A stretch of 64,000 bases of DNA, taken from contig NZ_CP019699.1 in NCBI RefSeq assembly GCF_002005165.1, positions 3,286,001 through 3,350,000 on the forward strand, given 5' to 3'. Made by a program: the position numbers and the translations under genes. How positions within the stretch are numbered: the first letter of the stretch is position 1; the number at the start of each line of letters is the position of its first letter. This document shows, piece after piece, positions 20,375-29,434 of this stretch. The stretch is from Novibacillus thermophilus. GTDB taxonomy: Bacteria; Bacillota; Bacilli; Thermoactinomycetales; Novibacillaceae. Below the pieces are notes generated by a model, which saw only the letters and a program-made list of their open reading frames with translations, ran no database searches and had not been told where the DNA came from.

Positions 20375-21594
20375 CCGTCTCCCCCCGATCCGCCCTCCAC
20401 ACAAACCACCTCGTCGTACCGTTCACTCAGCTTTTCGACATCCGCCTTTTCCAGCTCTGACCCCACTTGCATGGTCACCCGACGGCCTTTCTGCCGCCAT
20501 TTCCTCGCTGAACGCAACGCCTCGAACCTCTCGGAAGGGTCGTACACGATGAGCACGTGCTCCTTCTGATCCTCGGTCAAAGGGCTTACGTCCAGCACGC
20601 GATCCACCTTCAACTGAAAGCCGACGGCTGCTGCGGACCGGCCGAACCGGGCGAGCAGCGCGTCGTACCGGCCACCACTTAACAAGGGAAAGCCGTGGTC
20701 CTCTGCGTACCCTTCAAAGTATATTCCCGTATAGTAGTTCATCTTGCCAATCATGCTCAGATCTAACGTGACAAACGGGGTCACACCGTAAACGTCCAGC
20801 GCCTCCCACACTTTGCGCAAATGATCGAGGGCCTCTCGTTCCTCGACCGATGCCGCTTCAGCCATCCTCTCCTGTAACAGCGCCTTTCCGCCCCGCCACG
20901 CGAGGAGCTCGTTGAGCCGCCGCTTGGCATCGCCGCCGAGAGACAACTGTGCCACCGCTTCGCGATAACCGACATAGTCGTAGTCGTTCAAATAGCTTTT
21001 GAGCTGTTCAATCGCCTTGTCGTCCCCAATACAATGTCGCAGAAAGGCGTTTAAAAAACCGACATGCCCGATGGCCAACTGAAACGGTTCGACTGAACAG
21101 ACCTTCAAACTCTCGATGGCCAGGGCCAGCATTTCCGCGTCGCCGTCGGGAGATGCGTCTCCGATCAACTCCACACCCATCTGTTTGAATTCCGCGCTCC
21201 GTCCCGCTTCGTTCTCCTGGGCTCGAAATATGTGGGCGCAGTAAGACAGGCGCAAGGGCAGCGGTTCGTGGCGCAACACCGAAGCGACGACACGCGCAAT
21301 CGGCGTGGTCATATCCGGGCGCAGGACGAGGGTGTTGCCGTGTTTGTCCAACAGTTTAAACTGTTTATGATTCAACGTGGAGCTCGCTCCACCGACCGTC
21401 TCGTCATACTCCAGTGTCGGAGTCATCACTTCATCGTAGCCCCATAGCCCAAACAAGCGGCCGACGCGCTCCTCAATCAAGCGCAGTTTGCGCACGGCTT
21501 CGGGCAAGTAATCGCGCATACCCACGGGCTTTTCAAAACCTCGTGGCTCATCCGCTGCATGGCCGGGATGCGATGTGTGGCTCAAACGCCTCAT
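20371..21594 (-). CDS. hisZ: ATP phosphoribosyltransferase regulatory subunit
   Basis: A histidyl-tRNA synthetase paralogue that forms an octamer with short HisG and confers histidine feedback. At 407 residues it is similar to other HisZ. Class II synthetase motifs remain: [30 protein letters not shown] (motif 2 area), and [12 protein letters not shown] near the end. ATG 21594 has GGAGG seven bases upstream. It is the first gene of the operon, directly after the his promoter and the inverted repeat. Confidence 0.93.
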
Positions 21595-21619
21595 CCAATT
21601 GCCTCCAAACTCACAAACA

Positions 21620-21643
21620 CTTTAGTGTGGTAGCAAACTAAAG
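21620..21643 (-). promoter_or_regulatory. inverted repeat in the his leader, probable repressor operator
   Basis: CTTTAGT (21620-21626) and ACTAAAG (21637-21643) are perfect seven-base arms separated by ten bases. They lie just downstream of the predicted transcription start and upstream of the hisZ ribosome site. There is no T run, so a protein-binding site is more likely than a terminator. No T-box elements are visible. The best guess is a histidine-responsive repressor of the TrpR/YerC type; that assignment is inference. Confidence 0.55.
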
Positions 21644-21662
21644 CGCCTTATCGTTGCCAGTT

Positions 21663-21691
21663 ATCTTACCACGCGTCCCTTTTTCCGTCAA
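21663..21691 (-). promoter_or_regulatory. sigma-A promoter of the his operon
   Basis: On the minus strand TTGACG (21691-21686), a 17-base spacer and TAAGAT (21668-21663). The expected start is near 21656, about 60 bases before hisZ. Confidence 0.7.
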
Positions 21692-22062
21692 TACAATGAA
21701 CCCAGCTAAGCGCAAGTTGCGATGCTCTTAAAAACCGATCATACCAGGCATTGAACATTGCAAAACAAGACTATCCCTTTTTAAGGTCAAGATACGTCTT
21801 CATCTTTTTTTCAAATGTAAAGGCGATTGACGGTAAGATCGGTTTATGGGATTCTAATTTTAAAGTTCTTCAATAAAGGGGCAAAGTCCTTTTTTTGAGC
21901 TTCAAATTCCTCACGCTTCAGAGGCGATTTTCATGCAAAATGCTCAAAAAAAAAAGAGGGGGGCGTGACACAACGCCTAACGGCTAATTTTCAACTCAAC
22001 TCTTAGCTCGCTGGTCACAATGGTGGTTCCCTTCTCGTGAGCGATATAAAGGAGGTCCTAGC
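21692..22062. other. AT-rich non-coding region with nested inverted repeats
   Basis: No intact gene in about 370 bases. AAACCGATC (21732-21740) pairs with GATCGGTTT (21837-21845). TTTTTTTGAGC (21890-21900) pairs with GCTCAAAAAAA (21942-21952). Inside the latter are CCTC/GAGG (21909-21924) and ATTTT/AAAAT (21927-21941). Minus-strand frames are broken by stops and I recognise no protein. Possibilities are terminators flanking a lost gene, an untranslated regulatory leader for the transporter downstream, or a decayed mobile element. Base composition is clearly more AT-rich than the neighbouring his genes. Confidence 0.45.
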
Positions 22063-23640
22063 TTGAGTTCGAAAAAGGTTGCGATCTTGGGAAGTAGCGG
22101 CGGGAATTTGTATACCCTCGGTGGAAAAGATCCAATGAAACTTCTGCAAGAAATACACGCCCAGTGTGTTGCGGCGAATGTTGGCATTGCTGCCGTGCAA
22201 TTCATTGGTGCGAAGGCCTCGATGGACACGGTCCAGGAGACGACACCGGCGGAGTTATACGTATGGGATTCGTCGACACAAACAGCCCGTGTGGCGTTTT
22301 CTGGAACACTTCGAGAAGTGAACGAACAGGCCGTGCACATCGACAACGAAGTCGCTCAACAAATTGACGCCGGCCACATTGACGGCATTATCTTAATGAG
22401 TGCCGATCCAAACGGTACGAATAAAGAAGCGATTGCCGCAGCGATTAGAAAGCGCATCCCGATTGTTGGGACAGGCGGTACCTCTATGGCGATAACCAGT
22501 TCTAAAGGCGGTCATGTCATCGCCGCGTCGGGGACGACGGGAACGACGAACCGGACGCGCGCTGTTTCGTTCCTCAGTTCACTGGCGAAATATTGGGGGA
22601 TGAGTTATCGGCCGGCGATTGGTCACTCGAAGGAGACCGTGGCAGACAACCCTCTAAAACGGATTCAATTTAGAGGGATCATGTTAGCTGCCTTACCGGG
22701 CTTTATTTCTCTCGCCATTATTCTCGCTCTTAGTAAAATCCCCATCCTGTCAAGCCTAAGTGACGTTTTTGATATCCTAATAAAAGCGTTGCCAGTTATA
22801 CTAGCTGCCATAGCCGCTAGACAAATATCCGGATTAGACGAAATTGCCATAGTTGCAGGCATTGTCTCGGGTGTGTTATCTGTTGATGGCGGGATCATTG
22901 GCGGGATGATCGCGGGAATCCTCGCGGGAATTCTTGTCAGTTTCCTTTTTCAAAAGTGTGTTAGCTGGAATTTCCCGACAACGACCGTTAACATTGTCGC
23001 CGGTGGACTATCCGGACTCATGGCCGGCTCGTTTGTTTACTTTCTCATCGCACCGTTGGCGTTGGAAGCCGGAAATTTAATTCGGCAAGCCATTGAATCG
23101 ACGATTGCTTTAAGTCCGATTTTGGCTGGTCTTGTAGCCGGACTCCTTATTTGGCCGGCCATTCTTGGCGGCGTTTATCATGCAGCTATTTTACCTATTG
23201 TGCTCTTGGAAATGGAAAAATCAGGAAATAGCTTTCTCGGCGCTGTAGATATGACGGGTCTCGTCATGGTATCGGCTGGAATAACTTTGGCCAACGTTAT
23301 CTTACCCCGCAAGAGGGGAGAAGCGACACTCGCAACACCCGGATTTTTAATCAATATGGGGTTTGGGACGTTTGTCGAGGCGGCCTATCCATTTATGTTC
23401 TCTAACAAAATGGTTTTTGCCGGAGCGATAGGATCGGCTGGATTGGCCGGTTTACTTGTCGGACTTTTTGAAGTAAGGGGAACGGCTTATGTGCCATCCC
23501 TCGTATCTCCCTTTTTGTCCAACAATGTGACCGGACTCACGATGGCCATGGCAGGCGGCTTTGTCAGTTCATTTGTGATTACACTCATTGCAAACAAATT
23601 GAGTAAGAAAAAAGACAGTACCACAATGAAGGGGGACTGA
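22063..23640 (+). CDS. EIIC-like (fructose-type PTS) multi-pass membrane protein with unrecognised N-terminal domain
   Basis: A 525-residue protein starting at TTG 22063, six bases after AAGGAGGT. Residues 1-195 are soluble and glycine-rich: GSSGGNLYTLGGKDP at the start, then GIILMSADPNGTNKEA and GTGGTSMAI, resembling a Rossmann-like ligand-binding fold that I cannot name. Residues about 203-515 have eight to ten hydrophobic segments. NMGFGTFVEAAYPFMF recalls the EGAIPF signature of fructose-family EIIC permeases. No EIIA or EIIB domain is attached. Codons are more AT-rich than the flanks, it is on the opposite strand to its neighbours, and B. subtilis has nothing here, all suggesting acquisition. 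A transport role is likely; the substrate is unknown. Confidence 0.6.
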   Translation: MSSKKVAILGSSGGNLYTLGGKDPMKLLQEIHAQCVAANVGIAAVQFIGAKASMDTVQETTPAELYVWDSSTQTARVAFSGTLREVNEQAVHIDNEVAQQIDAGHIDGIILMSADPNGTNKEAIAAAIRKRIPIVGTGGTSMAITSSKGGHVIAASGTTGTTNRTRAVSFLSSLAKYWGMSYRPAIGHSKETVADNPLKRIQFRGIMLAALPGFISLAIILALSKIPILSSLSDVFDILIKALPVILAAIAARQISGLDEIAIVAGIVSGVLSVDGGIIGGMIAGILAGILVSFLFQKCVSWNFPTTTVNIVAGGLSGLMAGSFVYFLIAPLALEAGNLIRQAIESTIALSPILAGLVAGLLIWPAILGGVYHAAILPIVLLEMEKSGNSFLGAVDMTGLVMVSAGITLANVILPRKRGEATLATPGFLINMGFGTFVEAAYPFMFSNKMVFAGAIGSAGLAGLLVGLFEVRGTAYVPSLVSPFLSNNVTGLTMAMAGGFVSSFVITLIANKLSKKKDSTTMKGD

Positions 23641-23643
23641 CGA

Positions 23644-24023
23644 ATGTTTAAAGGAGACATGGAGAGAAAACGTAAAATTGCCATCGAAATAAAGCGTGGT
23701 AAGCAATGGAAGAATATAATGGACAAACGATATGAAGTGCTGGCATAACCGGAGATGATGTAAAAATCGCAAAAGCGGTTGTCGACGCTGGTGTACAAAT
23801 GTCGGAGCCTCATCACCCGACAGTTGCCCTTTCCCGCTGACATCAGGAAGTGACAACGATACACGGTGGGAACACGTCAGGCATACGACTTGATTTAGTA
23901 GAGGACGTGTAGCAGCCTCCAATCCGCTATGGAAGCATCTCTCTCGACGCAGTAAACGCGTCGCCAGAAGAAACACGATTACTGCCAATGGAGCCGTTTT
24001 CGTCCATTCGCCGCGCGTCATGA
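23644..24023 (+). pseudogene. decayed gene following the EIIC-like protein
   Basis: Begins at ATG 23644, three bases after the EIIC-like stop and with GGGGGA upstream, so it was probably co-transcribed. The first frame gives MFKGDMERKRKIAIEIKRGK and stops at 23746. The frame then continues, offset, from 23706 to 24023 with coherent protein-like sequence (GDDVKIAKAVVDAGVQMSEP, EVTTIHGGNTSGIRLD, SLDAVNASPEETRLLPMEP). It is broken by in-frame stops, for example at 23733. I read it as the remains of a cytosolic partner, perhaps a TIM-barrel-like enzyme. The family is not identified with confidence. Confidence 0.6.
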
Positions 24024-24071
24024 AGAACCGTCGTTCAAACCGTTCGACACCATATTAAATCCTGCCATTTT

Positions 24072-24572
24072 TTAAGACCGTGGATGATCCTCCACATACC
24101 GGACAAACTTCGCCGGATTGCCGGCGACGAACGCGTTCGGTTCCACGTCTTTCGTCACAATGGAACCGGCGGCGACAACGGCGTTGTCGCCGATTCTCAC
24201 TCCTGGCAAAATCGTACAGTTGGCCCCGATCATGACGTTAGAACCGATCTCTACCGCCCCGAGTCGGTACTCGTGCAGTAAGTATTCGTGAGCTAAAATC
24301 GTCGTATTGTAGCCGATAATGGTGTTGTCGCCGATTTTAATTTTTTCCGGAAAAAAGATATCCATCATCACCATAAAAGCGACAGCCGTCTGCTGTCCCA
24401 CTTCCATTCCCAAAAACGAGCGGTACATGGCGTTCTTAAGCCTTAGACTCGGACAGTAGCGGGCCAACTGGATGACGATGACGTTTTTGAACACTTTCCA
24501 AAAAGGGACAGTGCGGTACATTTGCCACAATGAATTGCTGCCGCTTACAGGATACCGCGTTGTACGGCGCAT
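24072..24572 (-). CDS. yvoF: hexapeptide-repeat acyltransferase (YvoF-like)
   Basis: A 166-residue left-handed beta-helix acetyltransferase of the maltose/galactoside O-acetyltransferase type. Hexapeptide repeats run from about residue 70 to 155 (IKIGDNTIIGYNTTI, VEIGSNVMIGANCTILPGVRIGDNAVVAAGSIV). The catalytic histidine is probably in ILAHEYLLHEYRLG. The C-terminal AGNPAKFVRYVE is typical. The acceptor is unknown. B. subtilis yvoF occupies the same place downstream of yvoD and lgt. The ATG has GGGGGG five bases upstream; yvoD ends 105 bases before it. Confidence 0.85.
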   Translation of the reverse strand: MRRTTRYPVSGSNSLWQMYRTVPFWKVFKNVIVIQLARYCPSLRLKNAMYRSFLGMEVGQQTAVAFMVMMDIFFPEKIKIGDNTIIGYNTTILAHEYLLHEYRLGAVEIGSNVMIGANCTILPGVRIGDNAVVAAGSIVTKDVEPNAFVAGNPAKFVRYVEDHPRS

Positions 24573-26770: not shown

Positions 26771-29434
26771 ATGGGAGTTAAACGGTTGTGGACATCTGCC
26801 TTGACTGTGTTCAGCATCATGGCGTTGCTCGCACCGTCCCTTTGGACAAGCCCGTCAGCCGCAGCTTCACTTCGCGATGTCGACCTCGAGCGCGAAACAT
26901 CCCTCGTCCGCATTACGGTTCCGGATCGGTCGACATTGGACGAGCTGGTGGCAAGTGACCTCGATTTGACCGAGTACGTGCGCGAGCGAGACGGTGCTAT
27001 CGAAGTGGACGCCGTTGTCACCGAAAGTGAACGAAAGGCCTTAAAGGCGCAAGGCTACACCGTCGAAACGGTGACGACTTACAGTGAAGTCGAGCGCACT
27101 TTAAAGCAGCGAGAACAAAAAGTCCGCCAACTCCAACAAGCGACAGCACGCGTGGACAAAATCAACATCTTGCGGGCCCAACACTTTGCGAACCAGGGCG
27201 GAACGTTCCTGTACGTTGAAGCGAAAACGAGCGCAGGGGATGCCGGAAGTGTTTCCCTCACCGCCACGTGGACGGAAGACGGTGAAAAGAAAACAGCCAC
27301 GCTGCAGCGCAAAGTGGACCAGAACGAATATTTGTACCACCACATGTTAGTCGAGATCGGTGCAGTGCCCGATCGCGTCGTCATCACCAGCAACCAAGGC
27401 GGACGCGCTGAAGTGCCGGTCACGGAGTGGGTTGGCGGAGAACCACCCGATGAAGGAGAACACTACGTCAGTGACTTTATCGACCACTATATGACTCCGA
27501 CAGAGGTGACGGCACGCATCGAGCAACTGGCCGCAGAATTTCCAGAGCTGGCCGAGATCGTCACTCTCCCTTACGAAACGAATGGCTACCGCCGAAAAGC
27601 GCAAGCCTTGATCGGCAATCCCGAAATCCACCCCGATGCCACGGTGGTGCTCACATCCAAAGCCTGGGGACACGAAGGCGGAAACGACATCACCGTAGAC
27701 GTTGAGGCATCAGATGAAGCAAACGCCGACTTAACCGTCGAAGTCAACGGAAACCACATGACTGTCAACCTCGCGACGAACGCGTCGGCTGAACCTTCTA
27801 GCACAGCTGCCGACGTCGTGGACGCCGTGAATGCATCCGCCGGACATCTAGTCACGGCGACCCTGTTTCGCAACAGTTCAGGCGACGACACGGTCCGCCC
27901 GCAGGAGAGAACGGCGCTGAACAACGGATTGGACGCACCCCCGGAAGTGTCGCGGGAACCGTTCGAAGTCAAAGCGATTCGCATCGGAAAACACCGTGAC
28001 GGATCCAAGGTGGGCGTCATGGCCTACGCCCAGGAACACGCTCGCGAATGGGTGACGCCCCTCGTCGCTGTGGAGACTGCTGAACGCCTCTTGCGCAACT
28101 ACGCCACCGACGCCGACACGAAAAAACTCGTCGACAACTTGGACATCTTCATCGTTCCGACGGTAAACCCAGACGGCGGACACTACTCGTTTTACGACTA
28201 CAACTGGCAGCGTAAGAACATGACGAACCACTGTGGACCCGAAAATTCCGACCCTTACCGACAGGATACGTGGGGTGTAGACTTAAACCGCAACCACACC
28301 GTCGGGTCTGTCTACGACGGCTACATCGGCGCTTCGACCAACTGTACGTCGGGCACGTACGCCGGACCGGAGGAACTGTCGGAACCAGAGAGCCGAAATT
28401 TGATCTGGCTCGCTGAAGAAAACCCAAACATTCAGTTCGCCATGAACATTCACAGCTACGGCGGCTATTTCATGTGGCCCCCAGGTGCGTACGACGCTGA
28501 ACGCAACACGTTGCCACGTCCGACCGCAGGAGAGGAAGCTTATTTCTGGCAGGCGTCGCAAACGATTTTGGAAGCGATCAAAGCGTACAGAGGGACTGTG
28601 ATTTTGCCTGGACGAACCGGTCCGATTCCGGACGTTCTTTACTCCGCAGCTGGAAACTCAGCCGACGCTCTCTGGTATGAACACGGGATTTACGCGTGGG
28701 ACTTTGAAGTCGGTGCAGACTTGTGGAACCCGGACACGAAAGAGTGGGAACCTGTCGGATTCCAGCCCCCGTTTGAAGAAGGGCACGCCGAAGCGATGGA
28801 GTTCGCAAACGGCATGATCGGGCTGTTTGAAGTCGCCTACCAGTACGCGACAGACGACAGACCGCCCCATTCGACGCTGAGCCCGGGAGAAGGTGCGTAT
28901 GACGGACCGGTGAAAGTTCGCTTCGATACGAGCGAGCCCGCTACCGTCTACTACACACTGGACGGGTCGCGCCCGACGTTCGATTCCGACAAAATCCAAA
29001 TTGCCGGTACCCGGGAAGGCGCCGAAACGTTAACGATCAGCAAAACGACGACGATCCATTGGTTTTCAGTGGACCCTGCCGGCAACGTTGAGGGAAATTA
29101 CGATCCAGAAGGCGATGGAGACAACTACAACAAAGCGACGATTGAAATAAATTACGGTTTACCTGACGGCATCAACGCCGCCGGCCTGAAGACGCTCATC
29201 GATCGATTGGAGCGAGAAGGAGAAATTACGCACGACGACTCTGCTCGCCATTTACGCACCCATCTGACAGCCGTCGACCGCTACGAAAGACAAGAAGCAG
29301 CAGAAAAGGTCGTCAAACACGTACAAACCTTTAAACAAGTGTTGAACCACCAGCAAGAACACGAGTGGATCTCCGAAAAAGCTTTTGACATTTTGAAAAC
29401 GTACGCCGACTTTTTGCTGGAGAAGTGGCAATAG
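26771..29434 (+). CDS. secreted M14 zinc carboxypeptidase with CHB-like and FIMAH-like C-terminal domains
   Basis: An 887-residue exported peptidase. It has a signal peptide at 1-32 (hydrophobic core, then SPSAAAS), a prodomain-like region of about 33-230, and an M14 catalytic domain of about 240-690. Zinc ligands are His423 and Glu426 (QEHAREW) and His561 (MNIHSYGG). Arg507 lies in LNRNH and the catalytic Glu646 in WDFEVG. Residues about 303-390 are an insertion between the first two strands of the catalytic fold (VNLATNASAEPSSTAADVV). Residues 700-775 resemble a chitobiase/hexosaminidase C-terminal beta domain (VYYTLDGSRPTFDSD, WFSVDPAGN). The last 90 residues form a helical FIMAH-type domain. 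AAGGAGG precedes ATG 26771. It is a lone plus-strand gene between lgt and hprK, and B. subtilis lacks it. Confidence 0.88.
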   Translation: MGVKRLWTSALTVFSIMALLAPSLWTSPSAAASLRDVDLERETSLVRITVPDRSTLDELVASDLDLTEYVRERDGAIEVDAVVTESERKALKAQGYTVETVTTYSEVERTLKQREQKVRQLQQATARVDKINILRAQHFANQGGTFLYVEAKTSAGDAGSVSLTATWTEDGEKKTATLQRKVDQNEYLYHHMLVEIGAVPDRVVITSNQGGRAEVPVTEWVGGEPPDEGEHYVSDFIDHYMTPTEVTARIEQLAAEFPELAEIVTLPYETNGYRRKAQALIGNPEIHPDATVVLTSKAWGHEGGNDITVDVEASDEANADLTVEVNGNHMTVNLATNASAEPSSTAADVVDAVNASAGHLVTATLFRNSSGDDTVRPQERTALNNGLDAPPEVSREPFEVKAIRIGKHRDGSKVGVMAYAQEHAREWVTPLVAVETAERLLRNYATDADTKKLVDNLDIFIVPTVNPDGGHYSFYDYNWQRKNMTNHCGPENSDPYRQDTWGVDLNRNHTVGSVYDGYIGASTNCTSGTYAGPEELSEPESRNLIWLAEENPNIQFAMNIHSYGGYFMWPPGAYDAERNTLPRPTAGEEAYFWQASQTILEAIKAYRGTVILPGRTGPIPDVLYSAAGNSADALWYEHGIYAWDFEVGADLWNPDTKEWEPVGFQPPFEEGHAEAMEFANGMIGLFEVAYQYATDDRPPHSTLSPGEGAYDGPVKVRFDTSEPATVYYTLDGSRPTFDSDKIQIAGTREGAETLTISKTTTIHWFSVDPAGNVEGNYDPEGDGDNYNKATIEINYGLPDGINAAGLKTLIDRLEREGEITHDDSARHLRTHLTAVDRYERQEAAEKVVKHVQTFKQVLNHQQEHEWISEKAFDILKTYADFLLEKWQ

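Follow-up and report, generated by a model that had tools for sequence, protein, structure and literature searches.

A conserved fusion of an EIIC-like permease with a soluble domain of no assigned family, and the apparent decay of its operon in Novibacillus thermophilus

The standard teaching is that EIIC carriers do not work apart from the PTS phosphorelay, and sugar operons can be under repressors of the GntR/HutC (UTRA) type, such as NagR and TreR. In EIIC of the glucose family, the Glu of the GITEP motif is essential, and phosphotransfer has been linked to a His in HP1b (PMC12900739). The gene studied here lies in a stretch of 64,000 nucleotides from Novibacillus thermophilus (hereafter, the window; contig NZ_CP019699.1, positions 3,286,001 to 3,350,000). 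Its product has a membrane domain that can be aligned with the beta-glucoside, sucrose and glucose EIIC (TIGR01995, TIGR01996, TIGR00852, PF02378), with an invariant His and an invariant Glu at the candidate positions, whereas it reads GTFVEA instead of GITEP, carries an unrelated N-terminal domain of ~190 residues, is accompanied by no EIIB or EIIA that could be found, and occurs in two genomes without a match to Enzyme I (EI). The regulator encoded with it in some relatives resembles the GntR/HutC repressors in its GntR and UTRA domains and in a short palindromic promoter box, with the difference that the operator, TGTACGTACA, is a predicted box here. We regard this as a new EIIC-like carrier architecture, with a fused soluble domain matching no known family, and a recurrent system. 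Among the literature matches listed, no title or abstract start concerned the fusion or the operon, most subscription papers lying outside the scope of the search.

The fused gene (22063..23640, + strand; ORF reading, alignment and selection analysis) encodes 525 residues of N-terminal alpha/beta domain and EIIC-like permease from a TTG start, and a ribosome-binding site, AGGAGG, can be read directly upstream (22050..22055, +). The open reading frame is as claimed in a preliminary description of the window, and the artefact of this one genome that the description had named as a way for the fusion to fail is ruled out, both halves being found together in 26 further copies. In total, the fusion comprises 27 full-length copies in Bacillota including that of the window, the 26 others being 42-83% identical to it. 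The alignment used throughout holds 26 proteins including the window copy, with 42-79% identity to the latter; the 27th copy (L052) comes from the same taxonomic family and is 83% identical. Since both halves are present in every full-length relative, the fusion is considered conserved and real. Besides the window, the copies derive from 13 confirmed loci, 12 more loci from profile searches of the class and phylum, and L052. All 13 confirmed relatives match over nearly the whole length with 63-67% identity in a scan of one-genome-per-species contigs, which reaches close relatives only. The N-terminal profile matches 15 of 299 class genomes and 3 of 398 phylum genomes (11 and 3 over the full length, the own genome being counted in both), and all 13 distinct full-length domain matches of these searches sit in frames of 514-560 aa. 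Four weak partial matches of the class search, which had E values of about 1e-4 in frames of 312-323 aa and were presumed from their length to be sugar-binding proteins, and a weak partial match in genome G240 from the search of the nearest relatives were excluded from the count. Plasmids and viral contigs searched with the fusion gave zero matches. Two of the copies, L041 and L042, have diverged strongly, with identities of 55% and 42% and branches that are very long, and may form a separate subfamily.

The membrane domain (aa 196-525; 22648..23637, +) was assigned by NCBIfam and Pfam scans to the beta-glucoside/glucose type. The window copy matches TIGR01995, the beta-glucoside EIIABC model, with E 3.9e-10 and 38.8 bits over profile positions 219-455, about 230 residues, far below the cut-off of 614.7 bits that applies to a whole IIABC. 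Across the 26 aligned copies, the NCBIfam matches go to TIGR01995 (18 copies), the sucrose model TIGR01996 (17), the glucose/maltose model TIGR00852 (6) and PRK09765, the 2-O-mannosylglycerate IIABC (2), so that the 'fructose-type' label initially given to this half is not supported. PF02378 matches 10 of the 26 copies (best E 8.9e-5), the window copy has zero Pfam matches, and a profile search with this half in the PDB returned 0 hits. The window copy scores below the curated cut-off of the glucose-superfamily EIIC (PF02378/TIGR01995), and because the NCBIfam scores are far under such cut-offs, we call this half EIIC-like and not a member. Within the stretch matched by TIGR01995, two residues invariant in the 26 copies were placed by eye on the alignment as candidate equivalents of those described in PMC12900739, namely His373 (23179..23181, +) for the HP1b His of glucose-family EIIC and Glu439 in GTFVE (23377..23379, +) for the GITEP Glu.

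The N-terminal soluble domain (aa 1-186; 22063..22620, +) is Rossmann/flavodoxin-like according to family scans, a structural model and fold searches. An AlphaFold2 model of the first 195 residues, built from 14 sequences, is alpha/beta with a mean pLDDT of 87.3 and a pTM of 0.86, the modelled strands covering residues 4-10, 40-50, a hairpin (62-69/74-82), 108-112, 133-137 and 151-156; the full-length model is poor (pLDDT 59), too poor for a structure search. The Rossmann-like character and glycine-rich loops proposed from the sequence are thus borne out by a confident alpha/beta model and by loops that are near-fully invariant in the 26 copies: GSSGGN (aa 10-15, of which 11-15 are invariant; 22090..22107, +), GTGGTS (aa 136-141, all invariant; 22468..22485, +) and SGTTGTTNRTR (aa 156-166, with S156-T161 and R164-R166 invariant; 22528..22560, +). 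Strands 133-137 and 151-156 lead into invariant Gly/Ser/Thr loops, GTGGTSMA and SGTTGT, the second with R164 and R166. The placement of this half outside known families also stands, no Pfam or NCBIfam family scoring above cut-off and the fold searches giving no clear leader. Foldseek returned 0 matches at E <= 0.001, its best being a type II dehydroquinase (E 1.5e-3). VIA-align 2 gave similar Z scores to unrelated folds (uroporphyrinogen III synthase 10.6, a sugar-binding protein 9.9, dehydroquinase 9.8, DJ-1 8.6), and no family was accepted from either search. The PDB sequence search found weak matches to a CinA-type protein (E 0.26) and to sugar-binding and TRAP proteins (E >= 0.035 with the full length, >= 0.2 with the domain).

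Some copies resemble the MGS-like domain (PF02142) locally, and this similarity is weak throughout. In the Pfam scan it concerns 8 of the 26 copies, the window copy not among them (best E 0.0011); PF13407 (Peripla_BP_4) is matched by 6 of 26 (best E 1.8e-4) and a phosphofructokinase model by one (E 0.0029). With hhalign, the probability is 19% over 42 columns for MGS-like and 9% for PF13407, the comparison sets being restricted to frames of 490-585 aa for PurH and of <380 aa for periplasmic binding proteins (PBP). In the ranking by an MgsA profile, which was built without L130 (an MGS-type match taken by eye as a CarB-like fragment), five copies stand at the head, above 1040 shuffles and 288 decoys, a small excess; a PBP profile search gave no excess of fusion copies over shuffles and decoys. 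The reverse search singles out no one family (PurH 10.1, PBP 8.4 and MGS 7.6 bits vs 5.6 for decoys). At most, then, these scores amount to a faint signal of a possible MGS relationship.

A phosphoacceptor of the PTS type had been offered as one role for this half, the other being ligand binding. The N-terminal domain has no invariant or near-invariant Cys or His across the 26 copies, and therefore neither the Cys-type EIIB nor the His-type EIIA identity fits, and a PTS-type phosphoacceptor role appears unlikely. The reading we prefer, taken from the loops alone, is that the domain binds a ligand.

According to the preliminary description, a recurrent partner set in a neighbourhood comparison would define the system, and such a set was found for some copies only: a TIM-barrel enzyme and a GntR-UTRA regulator accompany the permease in five of the 27 loci (L033, L034, L043, L044 and L052), but 21 copies stand alone, without enzyme or regulator. 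As L043 and L044 belong to one genus, the five intact loci represent four lineages. The regulator precedes the permease in L034 and follows the TIM barrel in the other four. PF00392 and PF07702 are over cut-off in the regulators of L033, L034 and L044, those of L043 and L052 being assigned by similarity. Six clusters among the 326 proteins of the 27 loci extend over at least three taxa. Three of them are the fusion itself, the TIM-barrel enzyme and the GntR regulator; the others were identified by eye as an ABC ATPase, an MFS carrier and a membrane sensor/chemoreceptor. The TIM-barrel copies of L033, L034, L043 and L044 are 63-89% identical to the L052 representative. The best solved relative of the enzyme is PDB 4ml9 ("uncharacterized"), a name that states no function; the L033 protein matches it at full length (residues 2-279, E 7e-123), while the window retains just a gene fragment. 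The operon links this solved and unnamed TIM barrel to a carrier, to a regulator and to a predicted operator, and so brings its substrate within reach of testing.

Searches for the TIM barrel in 299 and in 398 genomes each found it in three, the own fragment being counted in both, and all of these carry the fusion; at E 1e-8, among 26 fusion genomes, it is intact in four, a fragment in our own and not found in 21, with L052 as a fifth intact case beyond that count. Given that 21 of the 27 copies lack it, the TIM barrel would be dispensable for whatever the lone copies do. A plasmid search found a TIM-barrel gene, left without annotation in the collection, on one plasmid, pn1 of Nostoc sp. UHCC 0926 (L131:11980-12924, +; 61% identical), where a permease relative is absent within the 25 kb read.

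The predicted operator follows the same division. With up to 1 mismatch and within 300 bp upstream of the permease, TGTACGTACA occurs in 5/5 intact loci, in 0/21 lone copies and 0 times in the window, a pattern to be read as a description and not as an independent test, the motif having been derived from the same five promoters. The intact loci carry one or two boxes each, 28 to 62 bases upstream of the permease start, with no further such site in 13-15 kb. The window has two TGTACGTACA-like sites elsewhere (8849 and 31934), about the chance expectation for the 12-base form. The same string also occurs in a paper on AraR, another GntR-type regulator (PMC4218819).

Directly downstream of the permease of the window, at 23644-24008, we found two remnant genes that the preliminary description had missed. 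The first (23644..23864, +) is a pseudogene fragment of the TIM-barrel partner, corresponding to aa 3-75 of 280 (E 4.4e-23), with a frame break, three stops and the rest missing; an independent search recovered it with 64% identity over aa 15-78, the stops being two TGA and one TAA. The second (23892..24008, +) is a pseudogene fragment of the GntR-UTRA regulator, with aa 171-209 of 247 (54% identity, E 1.5e-6), one stop and the rest missing. The sequence that lies between both matched parts in intact genes is missing from the window. Partner-gene fragments were seen in the window only and not at the 21 lone copies. In the window, then, a three-gene operon has decayed and left the permease intact, and since both nearest relatives carry the intact operon, the simplest reading is that the loss took place in the lineage of the window. 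This is a clear case of operon decay leaving an orphan permease, a decay that gene-by-gene annotation would miss.

The permease itself could also be on its way out, as a dying relic with no present function in this genome, which we regard as a possibility, if a somewhat unlikely one. Apart from the decayed neighbours, the upstream intergenic region (21595..22062, +), examined by box search, promoter scan and a search against the own genome, has no TGTACGTACA box, and a simple consensus scan found no promoter-like site on its + strand; Rfam at gathering scores gave nothing for 21300-24200. An excess of amino-acid changes over L052 appears when L033 serves as outgroup (38 in the window copy vs 23, chi-square 3.7), but it vanishes with L034 (22 vs 24). 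The ORF, however, is open over 525 codons, with 105/106 of the columns that are invariant across the other 25 alignment rows retained, and lone permeases exist in 21 other genomes. The dN/dS of the window copy vs L052 is 0.078. The permease of the window thus remains under purifying selection, its ORF still constrained; its expression and use in this genome are uncertain.

Our main reading, to which we give about an even chance, is that the window gene is what survives of an operon of three genes, encoding a carrier of EIIC fold whose cytosolic domain binds a ligand, a sugar-phosphate-type enzyme and a GntR repressor. The membrane domain would transport a small solute resembling a sugar, as an elevator-type carrier of the glucose-EIIC kind. 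In the cytosol, the N-terminal domain would bind the imported solute or its phosphorylated product via the Gly/Ser/Thr-rich loops and invariant arginines, and may gate or hold the substrate. Conversion of the latter would fall to the TIM barrel, which has a weak relationship to phosphate-binding barrels, and the GntR-UTRA protein would repress the operon at TGTACGTACA until the effector arrives.

EI (PF05524) was matched in 25 of the 27 fusion genomes, so that most hosts could link the carrier to a PTS. No match was found in two genomes that carry the intact operon, G418 and G669; they belong to one genus, and their draft assemblies are 97% and 98% complete in 160 and 100 contigs, respectively. 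This suggests that the carrier can work without the phosphorelay, a conclusion that does not carry over to hosts with a PTS. Given the two intact-operon genomes without EI and a soluble domain without phosphoacceptor Cys or His, PEP-PTS phosphorylation is probably not what drives transport, at least in the lineage of G418 and G669. At the same time, if phosphotransfer is what the invariant His and Glu serve, they are a hint that the protein phosphorylates its substrate or descends from one that did. An unrelated domain in the place of EIIB, together with hosts without detectable EI, would show how a group-translocating carrier can be severed from its energy source.

These same residues, invariant at the candidate phosphotransfer positions, and the 25 genomes with EI would fit a true PTS EIIC that borrows its EIIA and EIIB, the N-terminal domain being a docking or regulatory piece at the place that EIIB takes in beta-glucoside permeases; the domain order is indeed like that of EIIBCA. 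A study in B. subtilis describes EIIA-less transporters that draw phosphate from the EIIA of other systems, and its list includes an EIIC-only protein, YwbA (PMC6148471). It also cites work in which EIIC and EIIB were split in the linker with full activity kept; in its own tests, separated PtsG domains worked poorly. However, the cross-talk shown there is that of transporters that lack EIIA but keep a fused EIIB, and EI was not matched in G418 and G669, where the operon is intact; we consider this arrangement unlikely. A different use of the EIIB position, in which the N-terminal domain of a PTS-derived permease drives or completes transport otherwise, e.g., as catalyst or recipient of a phosphoryl group that comes from some donor besides PEP-EI-HPr, would make the protein a group-translocating permease freed from the PTS. 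It would fit a carrier that retains His and Glu like a phosphorylating EIIC in hosts that can be without EI, and we see it as a long shot.

The 21 copies without enzyme or regulator and the fused soluble domain with conserved loops would also suit a membrane sensor, in which the EIIC-like part binds the solute and the soluble domain signals. A sensor role is suggested by the annotation of PfoR-type proteins, the type of PF13303 (PTS_EIIC_2), the second Pfam EIIC model. Yet this model matches just 1 of the 26 copies (E 0.0015) and has no match up to E 1 in this genome, a weak test given that 14 control genomes likewise have none over cut-off, and neither an output domain nor a conserved target gene was found. 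A sensor in place of the carrier that we favor is thus decidedly unlikely.

The gene is AT-richer than its surroundings, as had been noted (GC 0.493 vs 0.549 for the window and 0.582 for the his flank), and horizontal gain had been suggested partly on this ground. In addition to the low GC, the distribution is patchy, with full-length matches in 11 of 299 class genomes and in 2 of the 21 nearest relatives, the own genome included in each, plus one weak partial match among the latter, and L052 and L033 have different neighbors. But the GC of the gene is 0.488-0.493 in the window, L052 and L033 alike, and it is GC-richer than its flanks in 22 of the 27 loci, so low GC is weak evidence of transfer. 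Moreover, the window copy clusters with L052 and L033 with 100/100 support, consistent with their shared family and order, in a tree that leaves many of the deeper forks unresolved and places L041 and L042 on very long branches. The upstream stretch matches itself alone in this genome and is not a repeat. Recent horizontal gain is therefore not supported by these comparisons and appears improbable.

The remark that no EIIA or EIIB gene is close agrees with a Pfam scan at E 1e-5 of seven neighbouring genes, none of which carries an EIIA or EIIB domain (hisZ, hisD, hprK, lgt and the genes of a hexapeptide transferase, a Gate protein and an M14 peptidase); the other his genes were recognised by eye. 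The fused gene of the window adjoins the his operon, and at L043 (2584-3324, -) and L044 (9628-10365, +) the GntR gene of the intact operon is followed by one that is HisB-like, possibly by coincidence; the L044 gene matches IGPD with E 2.4e-32, under the NCBIfam HisB cut-offs, and the L043 copy is 94% identical to it. In L052 and L033, the intact operon lies in different neighborhoods, neither beside his, and the locus seems mobile within the order. Finally, a large M14 zinc carboxypeptidase gene with FIMAH and CHB_HEX_C_1 domains is found further along the window (26771-29434, +), flanked by genes on the opposite strand.
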